A DNA stretch of 34,597 nt, from contig VUYT01000064.1 of NCBI GenBank assembly GCA_008802785.1, positions 1-34,597 on the forward strand, in the 5' to 3' direction. Positions within the stretch are counted from its first letter, which is position 1, and every line of letters begins with the position of its first letter. The translations under genes were made by a program, and so were the position numbers. Shown piece after piece: positions 19,404-31,100 of the stretch. Under the pieces are notes generated by a model. It was not told the DNA's origin. It saw only the letters and a program-made list of their open reading frames with translations, and made no database searches. The stretch is from Symmetrospora coprosmae. Its lineage: Eukaryota; Basidiomycota; Cystobasidiomycetes; Symmetrosporaceae.

Positions 19404-19691
19404 GCAAGGCAAGCGCAGTACACGGCAGTGGGAAGTCCAAGCAGAATGAGTAATCAGTCAAGCATACATCCGACTTTCTTGTCAGTGTCCTATACCAGCT
19501 TATTATCCTACCTAGAGGCAATATTCCGTGGGTCGCATATGCATCTGCAAAGCATCTCTCCTTAGTCAGTGCCGCAAGTCGTGTGTGCGCGCTTTTAAGG
19601 AGAGAACGGTGTAGCCTTTCGAGCAGAAAAGCAAAGGACCCTAACAGCAAAGGATGTAAAGGCTTGCGCTATTGACAGGAATCCGGCATCT

Positions 19692-21334
<1,643 letters not shown>

Positions 21335-21952
21335 GCAACAGCGGTGCAGACAATCTCTCTTCTCTCTTGTAGAAGCTGCTGCCCTTTGATGCTGATCTGG
21401 CTGGTGCTTTCCGGGTGCAAGTGCAAAGGCAGAGGGACCGCTGGCTTCCGCTGAGCGCGGGCCGGGATGGGATGGGATGGGCGAGCTGAGCAAGCATTCG
21501 TCCCTCACCCACAGGGCAACGACAGGAATGACAGGAATGACTAATAGCTGACTCGCTCCGTCATCCGCTTGCAATGTTAACGCTTCTGAACCTTCGCTGA
21601 CGCGCTTCGTATCGTGCTAGTGGCATATCCTTCCGATGCTACACATACGCGACCCGCCGGCTGGTATCGCAATCAGGCACAGAGCTGGAGGCTAACGAGC
21701 TGCTGATGATGTAAGAGAGGTCACTAACGACTGCCGGCCACTCCCGTCCGTCCTCGTCTTCGCTTCTGCCCTTGCTTTCGCTCCCTTACCGCCGACTCTC
21801 GTTACCCCTTCCCTCGCCGTCGCGCACATACGCTCGAGCTGGTACTCGAACGTTTCCCTGCGCGTCCACGCTCTAGCCGGTCTAGAGTCACAGAGACGCA
21901 GAACCACTCTGGCCCTTCTTCTGCGCGACGAATCGACAGCAGGCCTGTCACG
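21335..21952. other. Divergent promoter region of TRR1 and the aspartic protease
   Basis: 618 bp between the two start codons. It holds a Yap1-type site (listed separately), three head-to-tail GGGAT units at about 21466-21481, and two GACAGGAAT units at about 21521-21538. No coding frame is supported. Confidence 0.5.
21538..21544 (+). promoter_or_regulatory. Yap1/AP-1 response element (TGACTAA)
   Basis: TGACTAA is an exact match to the fungal Yap1 element TKACTAA. It lies about 204 nt upstream of the first TRR1 ATG. TRR1 is a well-known Yap1 target in yeasts, so oxidative-stress control is a reasonable inference; the site could also serve the divergent protease gene. Confidence 0.5.
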
Positions 21953-24049
21953 ATGCTCCTCCTCTCTCGGAAGTTCGCATGGTCGCCCCTCCTCCTTCTC
22001 CCTGTCGCAGTCGCTGCAGGGCAGGCCCACACCACGCGAGGCATCGGCATACCTCTGGTGAAGCGCGCCCATGTGTACACGCTGGACGAGCAAACAGGAG
22101 CCCGGGTGGCCAACCTGCCAGCTCTCCGCCAGCATGTGTCGGACATCGATGCAAAGTACAGACAGGGCATGAAGAACTGGCAGCTCAACACCGGCGAACT
22201 AGATCTCTGGCCCGTGCCCGCCGCAGTCGCTCCCGCGGCCGAGGACACGGAGTACGAGGACGCCTTGGACACCCTCCTGGGCAGCTTCGCAGCCGACATT
22301 GATTCGGACGGCCCCGGGGAGGATGCAGATCCGTCTGGGGCCATCAGCCGTGACCCCCTGAAGGTCTTCAATGAAAGCAACGTCCGGAATCAGTTTCCCA
22401 TCTTATCGACCCGCCTGCCTGCAACGGCTACTGCCCAGACTGCCAGCACTGCCACCGTGTCGGCATACAGATCGAGGGAGAGGCGAGGAAGGAGACTGAA
22501 GACACGTCAGAGCGAACCTCTCGTGCCGGTCCAGAATGGTCTCCTATGGGTAGGGGCGGTCAGCATTGGAAGCAACAATCAGACCTTCCTTATCGACATG
22601 GACACGTGGGTCTCGTAGTGTACGCTCTCGTGACTCGGGAGACGCAGGACAGGGGCTCACCTGCCTTATCCCCCTCTGTCAGCGGGTCTGCCGACTTCTG
22701 GGTTCCGAGCGTGGATTGCCGATCTGAGCAGTGCTCGAAGCATCGCAAGTACGATCCCGACGCCAGCAATACCAGTCAGCTCCAGAGCGATCAGACATTC
22801 AAGATGTGAGTTACCGCCCTGTCGAGCTCTCAAGCGATACCGCTCGCTGACGTGCGGCCCATCGCCGAAATGCAGAACCTACGGAGACGGCGCAAAGTCA
22901 TCTGGCCCCGTCTACACCGACAGTGTGACCATGGCCGGCATTACCGCCGACCAGCAGTACTTTTCGCCAGTCACGTCCGTGTCCGAATCATTTGGCAAAG
23001 ACCCCGAGGACGGGATCTTGGGCATGGCCTTCCAGACCATATCTGAACTGAACGAGCCTCCCTGGTTTCAGACTGTACGTAGACTTGCTCGGGATGGACG
23101 CAGCCCATCAAATGACTTTTCTCCTTCCCGCCAACATAGGCTGTGAGCCAGGGCAAGGTCCAGTCGGCGGTCTTTAGCTTCCGCCTGGCCAAAACAGGTT
23201 CAGAGCTGTATCTCGGAGGCACAAACCCCAACAAGTTCAGCGGATCCATCGAATGGCATCCCATCACATCCAAGTCGTACTGGGTAAGCCCATTGATTCC
23301 CCTAGTCTCCCCTATAGAGTCTGTCAGGGCTGAAGCGACATCTCCACCAGCTTATTGCGGGGCAACCAAGTATCAATGGGAAGCTATATGGGAGCAAGCC
23401 CTTCAACATGGCTATTGACTCCGGCACGACCGTTATTGTTGCCCCTTCGGCCGAGGCGAAAGCATTCTGGCGGAGCGTGCCTGGTGCCGCTCCGTACACA
23501 GCGGCAGCCGGATACTGGACCTTCCCTTGCAAGAGCCCCCCTAGCGTGAGTCTTGATTAGCAGAATGTGGAGGGGCGCCGATCTGACGTGCTGTATGCTT
23601 CTCGACGCGGCCAGATCTCATTCACCTTTACGAATTCGAACAAGGCCTGGAGTATCGCCCCTCAGGATTTCAACCTTGGCCAAACCGCATCTAACTCCCC
23701 AAACTGCGTGGGCGCGATCATTGGACAGGATGGCACGTCTGCTCCCTGACCGAAGCCAGCGGACTTTGCCTCGACTGACACTTCATCAACCCCGACAGTT
23801 GGCGTCAACGCATGGATCATGGGCGATGCATTCATGAAGAGTGAGAGGCCTCCTGCGAGCGTGCCACATACACACTTTCCCCCGCTGACTGTCGCCTCGG
23901 CCCACCACAGATGTCTAGTACGCTTGTAGACGAGCCTGCAGGCCCTGCTCGGATTTTTCCTTTGACTTCGGAGCTGACGGTACCTGCCAACCCTCAGCTC
24001 CGTTTTTGACTTGGAACAAAGCAGGATCGGCTTCGCGCAGCCAAAGTGA
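21953..24049 (+). CDS. Secreted pepsin-like aspartic protease (A1 family)
   Basis: Nine exons (21953-22605, 22683-22805, 22876-23074, 23140-23283, 23351-23545, 23615-23732, 23799-23840, 23911-23917, 23998-24049) give 510 residues. A hydrophobic signal peptide (about residues 1-22) is followed by a long propeptide with Kex2-like dibasic sites (KR38, and RR pairs at about 177-181). The catalytic aspartates are Asp217 in DMDTGSADFW and Asp396 in AIDSGTT; the flap is ITYGDG. The second exon join completes the first DTG (AC|C). The C-terminal FMKNVYSVFD and RIGFA, invariant in pepsins, are read only by including a 7-nt exon (ATGTCTA). The intron at 23733-23798 begins with GC (GCACGT), a GC-AG intron that is the only way to pass from GQD to VGVNAWIMGD in frame. 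Probably vacuolar or secreted. Confidence 0.92.
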
Positions 24050-24197
24050 TCCGCTTCCTCTGCCGAAGCAAGACCCACGATACTTTCAACACGGAGCTAG
24101 AGATACAGTATTCATACAAGTGTAGCCAGCGACCCCAATGTAGCCCGAAACCAGACCTACGTAACTTCTGCCCGAGAACACTCAGCCGACTAGACAC

Positions 24198-27100
24198 CTA
24201 GAGATCCTGACCAAACGTCTTCACAATGGTAGCACCGCCGACCAGCTTGTAGCCATTCGTGCGGAAGAGAGGGCACGACAGGAAGTGCTTGAGATCGTAA
24301 ATCTCGACCTCCTTCGCCCGATCTTGCAGCTCGCTCAGCTTGATCTGCACCTCGGAGGGGGCCTGGTCATTGTTCCGGATCGCAAAGTAGCGGACCTTGT
24401 CCTTGACAATCTGGCCGAGCAGGAAGGCAAGCAGCTCCTCGTGATCTGAAGCCTTTGTGAGGTACTTCTTGAAGCCCTGCGTAAGCAGAAATGGGGAGCA
24501 TTAGTTACAGCTCGACACTAACGCGGCATTGCAACCAAGACGACTTACTCTTTCGAGCTGCTTCTTGATCGACAGCTTCTGCGCACTGACAAAGCTCGCG
24601 ATAGTCACCTGCACCGCCAGGTCAATGTCATCGCTGCGAACCGAATTGCGCAGGTGCATCTTTGCGCTAGCTTCCGCCATCCGAATCGTCGACTCGAGGT
24701 GACGGACAGTAATAGGGAAGGATCCTGTCGAGAGGGATTCTCGGCGTAGATCGGCATACAGGCGCGAGATCTTCTCCATGTCCATTTGCACCAAGTTCGG
24801 CTGGATGCGCTCGCGCGCGTACTGTATATACTTCTTGAGCGTATCTTGCGGCAGGATCTGCGCACAGAAGCGTCAGCGGAAGTCCGCGATTTACAGGAGC
24901 GTAAGAGTTGGCTCACATCGGCGTCCAAGCTAGTAGTCACGTTCATTTCCTCCTGCTCGGCCACAAAGTCTGGATGGCTTCTTGTGTGGCTTCCCACGAC
25001 GAACCTGGCCAGCATCTCGTCGAGGACCGGATCGACGGCATCCTTGACCACGCAGAGTACGTCGAACCGAGACAAAATGGGCTCGGTGAGCTCGACGTTC
25101 TGGCTGAAGGGGATTGTCGGATTGTACCGCCCTCGAATGGGGTTGGCTGCTGCCACAATGGCGCAGCGGGCCTGCAGGGTCGTCACGATGCCGGCCTTTG
25201 AAATCGAGATGGACTGCTGCTCCATGGCCTCGTGGATGGAGGTCCTGGGAATGCAACGTCAGATCGGGTGTAGACGGTGTTTCCGCGCAAATTACTCACC
25301 GGTCGGCATCGTTCATCTTGTCAAATTCGTCGATGAGACAAACTCCTTTGTCCGCCAGTACCAGAGCACCACCTTCAAGCGTCCACTCCTGTGTCACAGG
25401 GTCGCGCCGTACGCTCGCGGTAAGACCGACAGCAGACGCGCCCTGCCCGGTGGCGAAAACAGCCCGGTGCGCGGTCTTCTCAACGTACTTCAGGAACTGC
25501 GATTTGGCGGTTCCGGGGTCACCGAGCATAAGGACATTGATGTCGCCGCGGATGCGATGCTTGTTGTTGATGTTCTTGGTGACACCGCCAAACAGGGAAA
25601 GGGCAATCGCAGTCTTGATGTCCTCGTGGCCGTAGATGGAGGGCGCAATTGACTTGATGATGCGCTTGCCGATTCGCTCGTCCCGCGCAAGTGTGCGAAT
25701 ATGCTTCTCGTCTTCCTCAGTCAGGCGGAAGGACGAGTACAGATCCTCCTTTTTCAGAATGTGGTTCGCCTCGAGGACGGTACTGAAGACGGGAAAACCG
25801 TTCTTGATGTTGAGACTCGTGTCAAAATTATTTCGGTAAATGCCAGTGACCTCGACTTCCTCTCCAGGCTTGGCGAAGTCGATGAGATCCCAGAGGAGGA
25901 TGACCTCGCGGTGCCGTGGCAGACGTCCAGCAGGTACGGATCCGGGCGACTCTTGCAGAGTCATCTTTTGGTAGTTGCGATATACGGTCTGCGAGGGGAT
26001 CCATCAGCTATTGCAGGGAATGAGCTTTGTCTGAGCTGTCTCACCTGCTCGCTGTTGACCACGAACGGACCACGACCGCCACAGCCCGAGCAGAAGCTGA
26101 TCTTGACCTCTGAGGTCGCGTCCTGGAAGAATGGCCCTAGGATGGCGTCACATCGGCCGCAGTTGAACTTGACATACTTCAGTTGAGGGAAGATGCCCGT
26201 CCGCCGTGTGACGACACCGGTGACGCGCACAAGGGCGTCGAGATGAATCTGCCGCAAGTCTCGGAGGGTGTACGAAGTCGGGAGCTCGGTGATGCGGACG
26301 TGGACCTCGGGATGAATTCTCTCGTAGACGGGGTAGTAGAGGAGAATGACGTCTAGCGCAACCTGATCGAAGAGCGAGAGCATCGGGGTCGGGCAGTTGG
26401 CTAGGAAGTAGGCGAGGATGGCCTTGCTGTCGGAAAGGTGCAGGAACGAGACGTGCAGTGACTCGTGATTCACTGAAGGAACGCGGGGGAGGTGCCAATT
26501 GTGAGCTCTCCCAGCGATCTGTACGCACGGGTCTGCTTCCAACGTCCACTTACTCTCTCCGAGCGCCTTGATGCGCTGCCCATAGACCGAGGTACCCTGA
26601 TCGTCGACGTAGGTCATCAAGAAGTTGCGGAACTCGCGCATAATTGTCTTCCGGACAGCTTCTGTCTCGATCCATTCTTTGATGCTGTTTGCCTTGATGT
26701 CGGAGAGCTGTTCGAGCGGGAGCTCATCATCGTCGCCATTGTCAAAGACGCCGTCTGCCGGCTGAGCCTCATCGTAGACGTTCCTCCTCCGACGCCGCTC
26801 GAGCAGAGCTGCTTCGCCATCACTCTCCTCCGAGTCGCTCTGCAGGAAGGCAGGCGCTCTTGAGCGTCTCACGCCTCCTGGTCCCCTCCCGCCGGTAGCC
26901 CGGTCGTCTCGCTTGTCGCGCCGGTCCATCCTCCTCTCGGCTGCCGCTCGCGCCATGGGATCCATCTGATCGTACTCCTCCTCATCGAGATCGATGCCCT
27001 CGTATGCATCTAGCTTCTCGTTCTCCACGTAGTCTCTGTGGATGACGGCGGGTCGGGGGATTATCGTCTCCCGTCAGCTTTGACGCGTCGAGGGACTGCG

Positions 27101-27516
27101 GCTGGTAGGCAGCACCGCAGGAGAGCGAGAAGCCCAAGGCAAAGGACGAACGCACTCGACCATCTGATCACCGAAGAGGTCCTCGCCTTCAGGCTCTGCC
27201 TCTGCCGGCCCATCGCTCTCGCCATCTGCATCGCTTCCCACATCCAGGTCTTGAACGGCACCCTCAATGTCGCTGATATCCTCGTTCTCTACGTCGCTGC
27301 TCATGAAAGGCTGAGGTGGTGACGACGGAGGCAGCGAGGAGGGAGGCGCGCTACTGCGCCCGCTGTTCTCAGGAGGGGCTGCTGCTCCTGCCCTGCTTCC
27401 TTCAGCGTCGTCGCGTCGACGCTTGACTGGGGACTGCGTGCAGAGCGGACCGCGTCGAGGGGTTGCTCAGCGCCTGAGCTTTCAGGATGGAGGCTGCTTG
27501 TAATACCTACCACCAT
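24198..27516 (-). CDS. MCM2: MCM2, subunit of the replicative MCM2-7 helicase
   Basis: Eight exons (27511-27516, 27156-27433, 26554-27035, 26045-26472, 25300-25988, 24917-25244, 24549-24857, 24198-24476) give 932 residues, normal for MCM2. The acidic N-terminus with [20 protein letters not shown]-type sequence is specific to MCM2. The zinc finger has Cys at about 360, 363, 383 and 386. The AAA+ core has Walker A GDPGTAKS (554-561), Walker [10 protein letters not shown] (615-623) and the arginine finger SRF (about 686-688). It acts in the nucleus at origins and forks. The first coding exon is inferred to be just ATGGTG, spliced through GTAGGT to an exon starting with SPVKRRRDD; without it the open frame has no upstream ATG before residue Met at 27304, though that internal start remains possible. 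The intron at 26473-26553 is 81 nt with no stop. Confidence 0.96.
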
Positions 27517-28104
27517 ATTGCAGTGCTGCTACTCCTCGAATCGAATGGTGTGATTGCCCTGCTACAGTCTTGCTGTCCTACCGGTAGTGCTCAGAGGTTG
27601 GGAGACAGAAGGAGAGACGCGTCGAGCTCTTTCGGGGAGGGGCGGCGAACCGCGGACTCCAGTGGCAAAGCCATCACGTAGATTGCAATAGAGAAGCCTC
27701 CAACACCTCGTGAGGAATATTCCGACGGCAAGGTGACAAGCATGCGTTGGCTCCGAAGCCGACATATTCTCGCTACTCGTTACACGCAGACACATATACG
27801 GCCAGCCCCTGGTCGGAGGCTGGGTGGAAAGGCCACGATATAATCTAAGACCAGGCACACAAAGCGTGTATCAATGGTTCATGATGACATAGAAGAGCTT
27901 GCGCGTGTGTATGAGCAAGGCTTGCGAGCGGCGTGCGAGTTCAAGGGGTAGTGACGATCACGTAGATAGGCGGGCGTGTATGTAGCCTTCTCACGCGAAC
28001 ATGCAGATGCCTGATGCAGGCTAGCCGCGTAGAAGGAACGAAAATGTTGTGGGTGGTGTGCTAGGGCCGACTGAAGGTGTTCCGGATCTGCGGCTGCGGT
28101 GCCT
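27517..28104. other. MCM2 promoter region / WOPR 3' region
   Basis: 588 bp between the WOPR stop and the MCM2 start, both genes on the minus strand. It contains an MCB element (listed separately). No coding frame is supported. Confidence 0.55.
27617..27622. promoter_or_regulatory. MCB element (ACGCGT)
   Basis: The palindrome ACGCGT lies about 100 nt upstream of the MCM2 ATG. MBF complexes bind this element to drive G1/S genes, including MCM genes, in yeasts. A second ACGCGT lies inside MCM2 intron 2 at about 27084-27089. Confidence 0.55.
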
Positions 28105-31100
28105 TTATGTCGAATAGCGTGCGTATTGATCCGCGTCGTGGCTAGCCTGACTCAGGCCGCTCTCAAACGGCTGCTTCGCCTGTTCCTTCATCGAGCTTGA
28201 AAGAATGCTGGCGTAGTCTGCAGCTGTAACGCGTGGATGTCGCTTATACGAGGGTGGCGCCGACCCCTCGGTCATGGTACTAAGCGAGAAGCGTGGAGCC
28301 TTCTCATGCTGTGGTCCAGGTCCATCGCCATGCACGGATCCGTGGGCCAGTTCTCCCTCGACTATGTCCCTGTGTTCATAGGCTGCAGGTGCCACCGGTG
28401 ACGATGGCTCCACAAAGAGAGCACCGTGCTGTTGCACGGGATGCGGCGGAGACTCGCTGTATGCCGCAGAGCTCGGCAGTAGCGGGCTGTAATGGCTGGT
28501 GGGGAGTTTAAGCGACGCGTGGCTGTTGGACCCACTGAGCTGATGCACTCGTGGCGGTGTCGTGCGTGCTACGGTGACCGGGAGGGCAGAAGCTACCTGC
28601 GACCCTGATACACCGTGCTGCGAAGTGGCTTGCTCGGCAAGCGCATCAGACTCCTCGCCGAGGATTGCACCCGCCGACAGGGGTAAAGGCGGGAGGACTG
28701 GAGTTGTCGAGGTGTAGTCCATGGTGTACGCAGTCGACACCTCCAGTCCTTGTACGGAGTACGCTGTGCTATCATTATACTGTGGTGGCTGTGGTAGTGA
28801 TGGCATGTGCGGAGATTGACATGCCTGTATGCTTGTCTCGGCGCCAGGATGATAGGCAAAGCCGGCGTCGGAAGCGTATGCATGATTGGGGTACGCCGGA
28901 GTCGGTGCGTACGGGTCGTATGACCACTGCGGTGCGGGGTACTCTGTTGCGGGATGCTGAGTGTACGAATATGCTGGATGATTGTAGTGCAGACCCGGAG
29001 CTACACGCGTGGGCGCGCCATACGCTGTCCCATCCGTTGCATTGGTAAAGCTGGTCCCGTGATACGGGGAATCGAGCGACCCTCCTAGCTGCATCGAGTA
29101 TGGCGGGTGTTCGGGTGGAGATGTAGACGGACGGGAAGTACCATTTGGTGGCAGGCCGGTTGGCAGCTCCGGCACGTCGCAAAGACCAGTTGGGGCCACG
29201 TAGCCGCTGTAGCGCCTCGCGGGTAGCTGAGACACGCTCGATGCTGAATACGGGAGGAAGGCATTACCGCCAGTATGGCCAAAGGAAGCTGACCGATAAT
29301 GCCTTTCGGCCGCAAACGAACCAGCAGCTTCCGATCCGCCGTACGGTAGCGTCCTTGGCGGCTGTGTCGAGTAGTCGTAGTGGAGGGGCAATGGTCGGTA
29401 CAGGGGAGTATGGTATTGCGGCTGTTGCAACCCGGCTTGGACGTCGAATGCGGAGCTGGAGCTGTACGATGCAGGCATGTCCACGGCTCCATAGACCGTC
29501 TGTACCGCACTTTGCGACGTGGGTCGGGAGCCTGACGATGTCTGGCGTCCAAAGGGGAGAGGGTACGGCTCGTGGCGGGCCGAAGATGGCCGCCTGCGCA
29601 AGGGCTCGCGATGTGTCGTAACAGGAGATAGCTCGCTTTGTCCCGAGGTGGACGAGTGAGCGGTTCCAGACCTGGCCAGGCCAGAAGAGGAATTCGTAGA
29701 CTTTGGCGAGAAAGTTGCGGGTATCGCGTAGGGCAATGTGTTGGAGTATCCTGTGGCGGTATAGCCTGTGTAGTGCTCGCCGCTCTGCTGAGCAGGCTGG
29801 CCGGGCAGGCCCGACGCAAAGCTTTGTGAAGCAGGCGGCGCGGGATGCCCCATCTCAAGGGACATAGTAGAGCTCGAAGGGTCGTAGATTGACAGCTCGT
29901 TGGTGCCTGAGCCAGGCAAAGCCGGCACTGTCCCCGTTTGTGCCGGATGACTGCTGCTCTCTCGCATCACTGGCGTCTGTGCTTCCGGAGGCTGTCCTCG
30001 CGGGGCAGACAAGGTCTGCGGACGGGCGTATATCGAATGGACAGCCGCTGACTTGCTAATCGTTTCACGGCGCGCCGAGGTGTCCGAGCGCAGCCTCTTG
30101 GCCTGAGTATTTGGCTTTCTCGCCATGGGCTCATCATCCGTCACCCGCAGGAAGCGCACCGCGCCGTCCTCGAGCGTCTCTACGACTGGTGGGTGTCGGA
30201 AATAGCTGGCCGAGAGGAAGATGTGGCTGATCTCGAGACTGGCCAGCTCGGGTACGCTCGTCGGGCAGATTAGGCGGCCGCTGCTGACATCGTCTGCGCT
30301 GTAGTCTGTGCAGGGATTTGGCGATTCAGCATTGAAGCAGATTGTACAAAACGCTCGTGATGGGCCCGCAGTCGACACTCACAAGTGATCATGTGCTGGC
30401 CAGCAACCGAGATGGCTTTCTTGATGAGACCGCCATCCCTAAAGCTCCCGGTCGCCGTCAGACTGCCCCGCAACGCTCTCTGAACCTTTGTCGAGCTGTC
30501 CTTCGCTGCTTCTTCGTCAGGACGTGCCAGTCCGAATGCTGGCACGGAGCTGGATGTCGAGTAGGCATCGGACGGTTCTGGTACGGCAGCTTCAGGGACC
30601 GCAAAGAGCGAAGAAGCAGAGGTTGCTGGAGTGGGCGGTGGAGAGAAGAGCTCTGCGCGTTCAGGTTGCACGACGTCGCTGCCTGCTGCAGGCCGGTCAT
30701 TGCTGTCGTCTGGAGCTTCTTCTCCCTCGTTCGCGTTGTCAGGGATCTCCCTGTCGTGCAACAGGCAGGTCGTGGAGAGCAAGTGAGCGGAGGAGCACAG
30801 CCAGCTGGATCGCGGCTGGCTCACTTGTAGATGAGAAAATTATTCAGTATCCTGCTGGGCGACCAGCGCCTTCCATCTGTCCATCTGATGATAGAGAAGC
30901 AATCGTCGGTTTCACGTGCGTCAGAAGCCAGTTCGCACCGTCTCGGCATCCGGGAAGTACGCACCTCTTGATCTTGGACTGTTCTTCGCTAAAGACAAAG
31001 ATGTCGCCAGAGGAGATTGACTTGCGTTCTGCATCCGACAGCCTGTCTGTCGTTCTTGGGAGGATTCCACGCCGGCATCCTGCAAAGAGGCGGCGGTCAC

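Follow-up and report, generated by a model that had tools for sequence, protein, structure and literature searches.

Tiny exons form a known class, for which the available text of PMC11121469 gives a microexon size range of 3–30 bp. Examples include a 1-nt exon in CYP621A of Fusarium, which has SRA read support and was compared across 20 orthologs, a 1-nt exon in APC11 of Arabidopsis, as cited in the same source, and an 8-nt exon placed inside a conserved motif of CYP5141A1 (all as given in the excerpts of PMC12940212). For the P450 genes of Phanerochaete chrysosporium, microexons down to 6 bp are described, and a link to alternative splicing is suggested (excerpts of PMC1184071). For Xlr2 of Trichoderma virens, the available text of PMC11121469 describes a microexon whose inclusion depends on glucose, which results in two isoforms. 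The available parts of PMC4014442 and PMC3990503 mention microexons solely as an aligner setting.

The exon described here has the sequence ATGTCTA (positions 23911–23917) and belongs to an aspartic protease gene of Symmetrospora coprosmae, located in a stretch of 34,597 nt (contig VUYT01000064.1; this whole stretch is called the window, and all positions refer to it unless stated otherwise). As judged from the DNA, it very probably represents exon 8 of 9, and it is a new, well-supported but unproven case of the known class of tiny exons. Among the matches listed for open-access literature on fungal, basidiomycete, and aspartic-protease microexons, none reports this protease exon by title or abstract start. 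As in Fusarium CYP621A (in the excerpted part of PMC12940212), direct joining of the flanking exons would be out of phase and the missing bases are needed for a conserved motif, which makes the exon obligatory for the frame. In contrast, it comprises 7 nt instead of 1 nt and is known from the sequence of one genome, whereas CYP621A is backed by 20 orthologs and SRA reads. With the P450 genes of Phanerochaete, as excerpted in PMC1184071, the protease gene shares exons of 6–8 nt in a basidiomycete; however, these genes encode another protein family, and the suggested link to alternative splicing finds no evidence in the protease gene. Like the microexon of Xlr2 (PMC11121469, in excerpt), it is fungal and its inclusion alters the protein. 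Unlike in the Xlr2 switch, skipping would destroy the C terminus of the protease, so that constitutive use is expected. The original prediction had placed the exon near the lower limit known, which does not hold given the published 1-nt exons (PMC12940212) and the 6-bp exons of Phanerochaete (PMC1184071), each as excerpted; known splicing limits are unchanged by the protease microexon.

By translation, nine exons on the + strand (21953–24049) code for an intact pepsin-type aspartic protease of 510 residues and are separated by introns of 65–80 nt (Table 1). The spliced protein matches PF00026 over the whole domain, with 257.0 bits (cut-off 19.9) from profile position 3 to 314 of 315. It aligns with solved relatives and holds the stretches DTGSADFW, IDSGTTV, and TYGDG. 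Herein, the two catalytic D-[TS]-G motifs and the flap tyrosine of the pepsin family (PF00026/A1) are present. The product is predicted from its sequence to be a eukaryotic aspartyl protease of this family. A hidden error in the region of intron 6 was considered and set aside. Excision of this GC-AG intron resolves the region without a gap relative to both the closest paralog, C8, and the best solved relative, 9uf9_A. The alignment program picked intron 6 with the paralog templates C8, C55, and C76 and did not use it with C44.

Table 1. Exons and selected introns of the predicted protease gene, and small exons of two paralogs (a slash marks a splice boundary; positions are those of the window unless another sequence is named)
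Feature	Position	Strand	Content	Basis
Exon 1	21953–22605	+	signal-peptide-like hydrophobic start (by eye), propeptide, start of protease domain to DT of first active-site motif	translation; end set by alignment program
Exon 2	22683–22805	+	GSADFWVPS...	translation, spliced alignment
Exon 3	22876–23074	+	flap YGDG...	translation, spliced alignment
Exon 4	23140–23283	+		translation, spliced alignment
Exon 5	23351–23545	+	second active-site motif AIDSGTT	translation, spliced alignment
Exon 6	23615–23732	+		translation, spliced alignment
Intron 6	23733–23798	+	GC-AG type, 66 nt, phase 1, ATG/GCACGT...CGACAG; CTGAC starts 24 nt before acceptor end	
Exon 7	23799–23840	+	42 nt, VGVNAWIMGDAFMK and first base of N codon	translation, spliced alignment
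Intron 7	23841–23910	+	70 nt, phase 1, GTGAGA...CACAG; branch-site-like CTGAC at 23885–23889, starts 26 nt before acceptor end	
Exon 8	23911–23917	+	predicted 7-nt microexon ATGTCTA; N-V-Y with both outer codons split	
Intron 8	23918–23997	+	80 nt, phase 2, GTACGC...CTCAG; branch-site-like CTGAC at 23974–23978, starts 24 nt before acceptor end	
Exon 9	23998–24049	+	SVFDLEQSRIGFAQPK, stop TGA	translation, spliced alignment
C-terminal peptide of the microexon-spliced protein			NVYSVFDLEQSR	
Tiny exon of C47	L034, 2919–2940	reverse complement	22 nt	by eye
Tiny exon of C47	L034, 3034–3049	reverse complement	16 nt	picked by program
Small exon of C1	L029, 2509–2533		25 nt, directly after NYYT/VFD intron	by eye

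The bases around exon 8 are as the original prediction described them, with ATGTCTA located between introns and followed by GTACGC (...CCACCACAG/ATGTCTA/GTACGC...), and the string CCACCACAGATGTCTAGTACGC occurs a single time in the 20-Mb genome. A search of this genome for 5.8S rRNA, intended for placing the fungus, gave no match. With 7 nt, the segment is shorter than 30 nt; it is bounded by an AG acceptor and a GT donor (CACAG/ATGTCTA/GTACGC) and is needed for both frame and motif. Joining of position 23840 to ATGTCTA and onward to 23998 creates the junction sequence ATGAAGA-ATGTCTA-CTCCGTT, which is read as MK-NVY-SVFDLEQSRIGFAQPK-stop. Skipping was expected to break the frame and the motif, and it does so: the translation is frameshifted, and the PF00026 score drops by 22.2 bits.

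The gene structure was determined with a custom protein-to-genome spliced aligner that permits introns of every phase and exons however short, lets frameshifts compete, and models all exons except those lying wholly within one codon. With C8, which has no intron at this place, as the template and without being given the exon beforehand, it returned the eight introns of the hand-made model, microexon included (score 750). The introns 23841–23910 and 23918–23997 were chosen with all four paralog templates used out of 12 loci (C8, C55, C44, and C76). A parameter sweep with C8 led to the microexon in 27 of 36 settings; at the highest intron cost of 26, which the other nine settings share, the local alignment ends ahead of both introns.

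At the homologous place, the intronless C8 reads CTCAAGG-ATGTCTA-CACG and is identical to the microexon in 7/7 bases. C44 and C55 both contain ACGTCTA (6/7 identical), and C76 contains ACGTCGT (4/7). The solved relative 9uf9_A (E 5.5e-92) aligns as SFLKGVYTTFDFANNRVGFS with AFMKNVYSVFDLEQSRIGFA of the gene, with no gap across the exon. A sequencing error or a pseudogene, with a disrupted frame and a 7-nt match due to coincidence, would agree with the weak donors of both flanking introns. However, the remaining gene is open across nine exons, with both active-site motifs, the flap, and the C terminus intact. Frameshift steps were permitted and yet are absent from the full C8 alignment and from the C-terminal ends displayed for the further alignments, and the complete match to C8 argues against coincidence—hence, this explanation is extremely improbable.

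The genome contains at least 12 loci with PF00026, and the C-terminal motif is readable in 11 of them; the motif counts exclude C33, the C-terminal part of which is unreadable. Among the paralogs, the position of NVY is occupied by DVY, NVY, NVV, NYY, NHY, SVY, SVF, or KWY. The motif N-x-Y-x-VFD, which had been called invariant, is thus typical of the family only. In 6/11 readable loci, an intron lies within the Y-x-V codons or at their edge, at four exact positions: in the Y codon at phase 2 (this gene), in the Y codon at phase 1 (C22), in the x codon at phase 2 (C75), and before V at phase 0 (C1 and both C43 genes). C8, C44, C55, C76, and C47 exhibit no intron at these codons. The intron in the N codon is confined to this gene (1/11) and absent from the other 10 readable loci, so that conservation gives no independent support. 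Because the whole-gene alignments are poor for C43 (twice) and C33, with scores of 68, 74, and 96, the two motif introns of C43 were read from local sequence; those of C22, C1, and C75 were read likewise. Contig C43 carries, at 19500–28500, two adjacent diverged aspartic protease-like loci, to which the templates align poorly.

Alternative ways of splicing the region were enumerated (ALTERNATIVES) by combining GT/GC donors at 23830–23959 with AG acceptors at 23860–24009 and introns of at least 40 nt. Herein, 44 paths keep the frame, consisting of 4 single-intron and 40 two-intron paths, and the protein length is unchanged in four of them (NVY, SES, IRF, and TCS). N-x-[YF]-x-VFD is obtained in 2/44 paths, both via the microexon, one of which uses GC as its first donor and carries an insertion. 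The claim that ATGTCTA is the only sequence that restores the C-terminal end is, hence, correct for the motif and too strong for the frame alone, which all 44 paths keep. When splice-site scores are summed, which sets two-site paths against four-site paths, the microexon path is the best of the 44 with 21.6 over four sites. The same microexon with a GC first donor reaches 13.3, the best path without the microexon 9.5 over four sites (IRF, with a second 7-nt exon at 23919–23925), and the best single-intron path 6.3 over two sites. The predicted exon model (23840 / 23911–23917 / 23998) is thereby borne out: the spliced alignment arrives at it as the optimum without prior information on the exon, its splice-site sum is the best of all paths, and its PF00026 score is the best of five models, with 257.0 bits compared with 252.1 (IRF), 250.4 (SES), 234.8 (exon skipped), and 233.5 (intron 7 kept, donor 23926).

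The splice sites were rated against 25 hand-picked reference introns, of which 22 stem from the translation of this gene and the paralog alignments and 3 were read from the sequence in addition; introns that scored low or looked odd were dropped. Both donors that flank the microexon are weak (4.2 and 4.65 bits vs a leave-one-out minimum of 4.7 in the 25 reference donors). The acceptors of introns 7 and 8 are ordinary (6.5 and 6.2), and the lengths of both introns lie within the reference range of 62–87 nt (median 72). YTRAY is contained in the last 60 nt of 17/25 reference introns; a branch-like site alone is, therefore, weak evidence.

Gene models lacking the tiny exon, as obtained by path enumeration and site masking, were rejected because they either depend on a poor donor or lack N-x-Y. 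In one of them, intron 7 is exonic: exon 7 would extend from 23799 to 23925 and be followed by one 72-nt GT-AG intron (23926–23997), giving a protein of 536 residues in which SERPPASVPHTHFPPLTVASAHHRCLVRF replaces NVY before SVFD. This is the sole path with a GT donor among the four frame-keeping single-intron paths, and it requires no tiny exon, so that automatic gene prediction may well settle on it. As the actual structure it is nevertheless very improbable. Donor 23926 scores 0.13 and, thus, falls below all 25 reference donors, and the PF00026 match stops at profile position 298 of 315. Moreover, the insertion is absent from five solved relatives displayed at residue level (among them three forms of a single protein) and from the paralogs C8, C44, C47, C55, C76, C22, C1, and C75 and the two on C43.

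A single 150-nt GC-AG intron (23848–23997) would give MKSES-SVFD via the junction AAGAGTGAGAG-CTCC. It keeps the frame at a length identical to that of the microexon protein, it is the best alternative once the splice sites of the microexon are masked, and the gene already contains one GC-AG intron. However, the GC donor at 23848 (GAG/GCCTCC) scores –13.3 bits vs 2.15 for the gene's own GC donor, the intron exceeds all 25 reference introns in length, and N-x-Y is lost along with part of the PF00026 score (250.4 vs 257.0); its use is hardly conceivable. The same can be said of the adjoining 7-nt exon TACGCTT (23919–23925), which is allowed by AG at 23917–23918 and GT at 23926–23927 and would yield MK-IRF-SVFD with frame and length kept and 252.1 bits for PF00026. 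Its splice-site sum is 9.5 vs 21.6 for the microexon ATGTCTA, and I-R-F has no match among the paralogs read in this segment, which leaves it next to no likelihood.

The level expected by chance was estimated by dinucleotide shuffling of the interior of the 157-nt interval, with the donor and acceptor ends kept, frameshifts turned off, and the C-terminal part of one template aligned. The observed score of 80 was reached in 0/1500 shuffles (maximum 78, mean 70.1), 18/1500 of which used two introns. If either the acceptor or the donor of the microexon is masked, the score falls from 80 to 70. Random 157-mers with the composition of the interval contain some open in-frame 7-nt exon between AG and GT in 30,954 of 200,000 cases (15.5%), and a family-compatible [NSKR]-x-[YF] 7-nt exon in 1,307 of 200,000 (0.65%), this test with random sequence having been set after the answer was seen. 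Because open in-frame 7-nt exons arise that often by chance, the frame alone is weak evidence for the microexon; motif, homology, and splice signals combined are strong evidence.

The best explanation of the locus, to which we assign a probability of roughly 0.93, is that an intact nine-exon gene for a secreted-type aspartic protease would use 23911–23917 constitutively as a coding microexon. Where short introns are spliced by intron definition, a long exon is not required. The two ordinary short introns of 70 and 80 nt that flank the microexon would each be removed in this manner: the spliceosome would pair the two splice sites of the short intron with each other, and the exon itself would, hence, need no length for its recognition. 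To the C-terminal pepsin strand, the microexon would contribute the last two bases of the N codon, the whole V codon, and the first two bases of the Y codon. Since 7 equals 1 modulo 3, skipping shifts the frame, which would make inclusion obligatory for the full-length enzyme. Retention of intron 8 creates an in-frame stop TAG at 23916–23918. From the frameshift on skipping and the stop on retention, constitutive inclusion is expected.

The same stop could be read as part of a switch. Retention of intron 8 would terminate the frame with TAG at the microexon's end and remove the essential C-terminal strand, the tandem donors 23918/23926 together with the second possible 7-nt exon (23919–23925) would give alternative isoforms, and splicing of the 7-nt exon would, thus, set the amount of active secreted protease. 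We consider such a role very unlikely. As for the origin of the microexon, the most likely event is the insertion of a new intron into the N codon, 7 nt ahead of the intron in the Y codon. The Y-x-V stretch appears to be a favored site, with introns in several genes of the family, and an intron gain upstream of such a site would be the simplest reading. With six of 11 readable loci carrying introns within the same three codons or at their edge, and one of them a second intron 7 nt upstream, the family offers a neat setting for microexon origin by intron gain or sliding.

A pipeline that applies a minimum exon length would probably produce a wrong C terminus for the protease, either by skipping the microexon or by keeping intron 7 (536 vs 510 residues). 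The paralogs C47 and C1 may run a similar risk of misannotation. Their exons of 16 and 22 nt (C47) and 25 nt (C1) belong to the same family, genome, and C-terminal segment as the 7-nt exon, but are longer and flanked by introns at different positions. Small exons are, hence, not rare within the aspartic protease family of this genome. C47 is saccharopepsin/cathepsin-like and seemingly contains two consecutive tiny exons, the 22-nt exon followed by the 16-nt exon, just before and in the WIIGD motif; PAPAGPI of the 22-nt exon resembles HPPAGPL of cathepsin E.

Further open frames are located in the neighborhood. Downstream of the protease gene and on the opposite strand, two open frames (25299–27028, – strand) with MCM2_N, MCM_N, MCM_OB, and MCM domains represent an MCM2-type replication helicase gene. 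An open frame at 19695–20144 (– strand) matches pyridine nucleotide-disulphide oxidoreductase and probably encodes a thioredoxin reductase-like protein.
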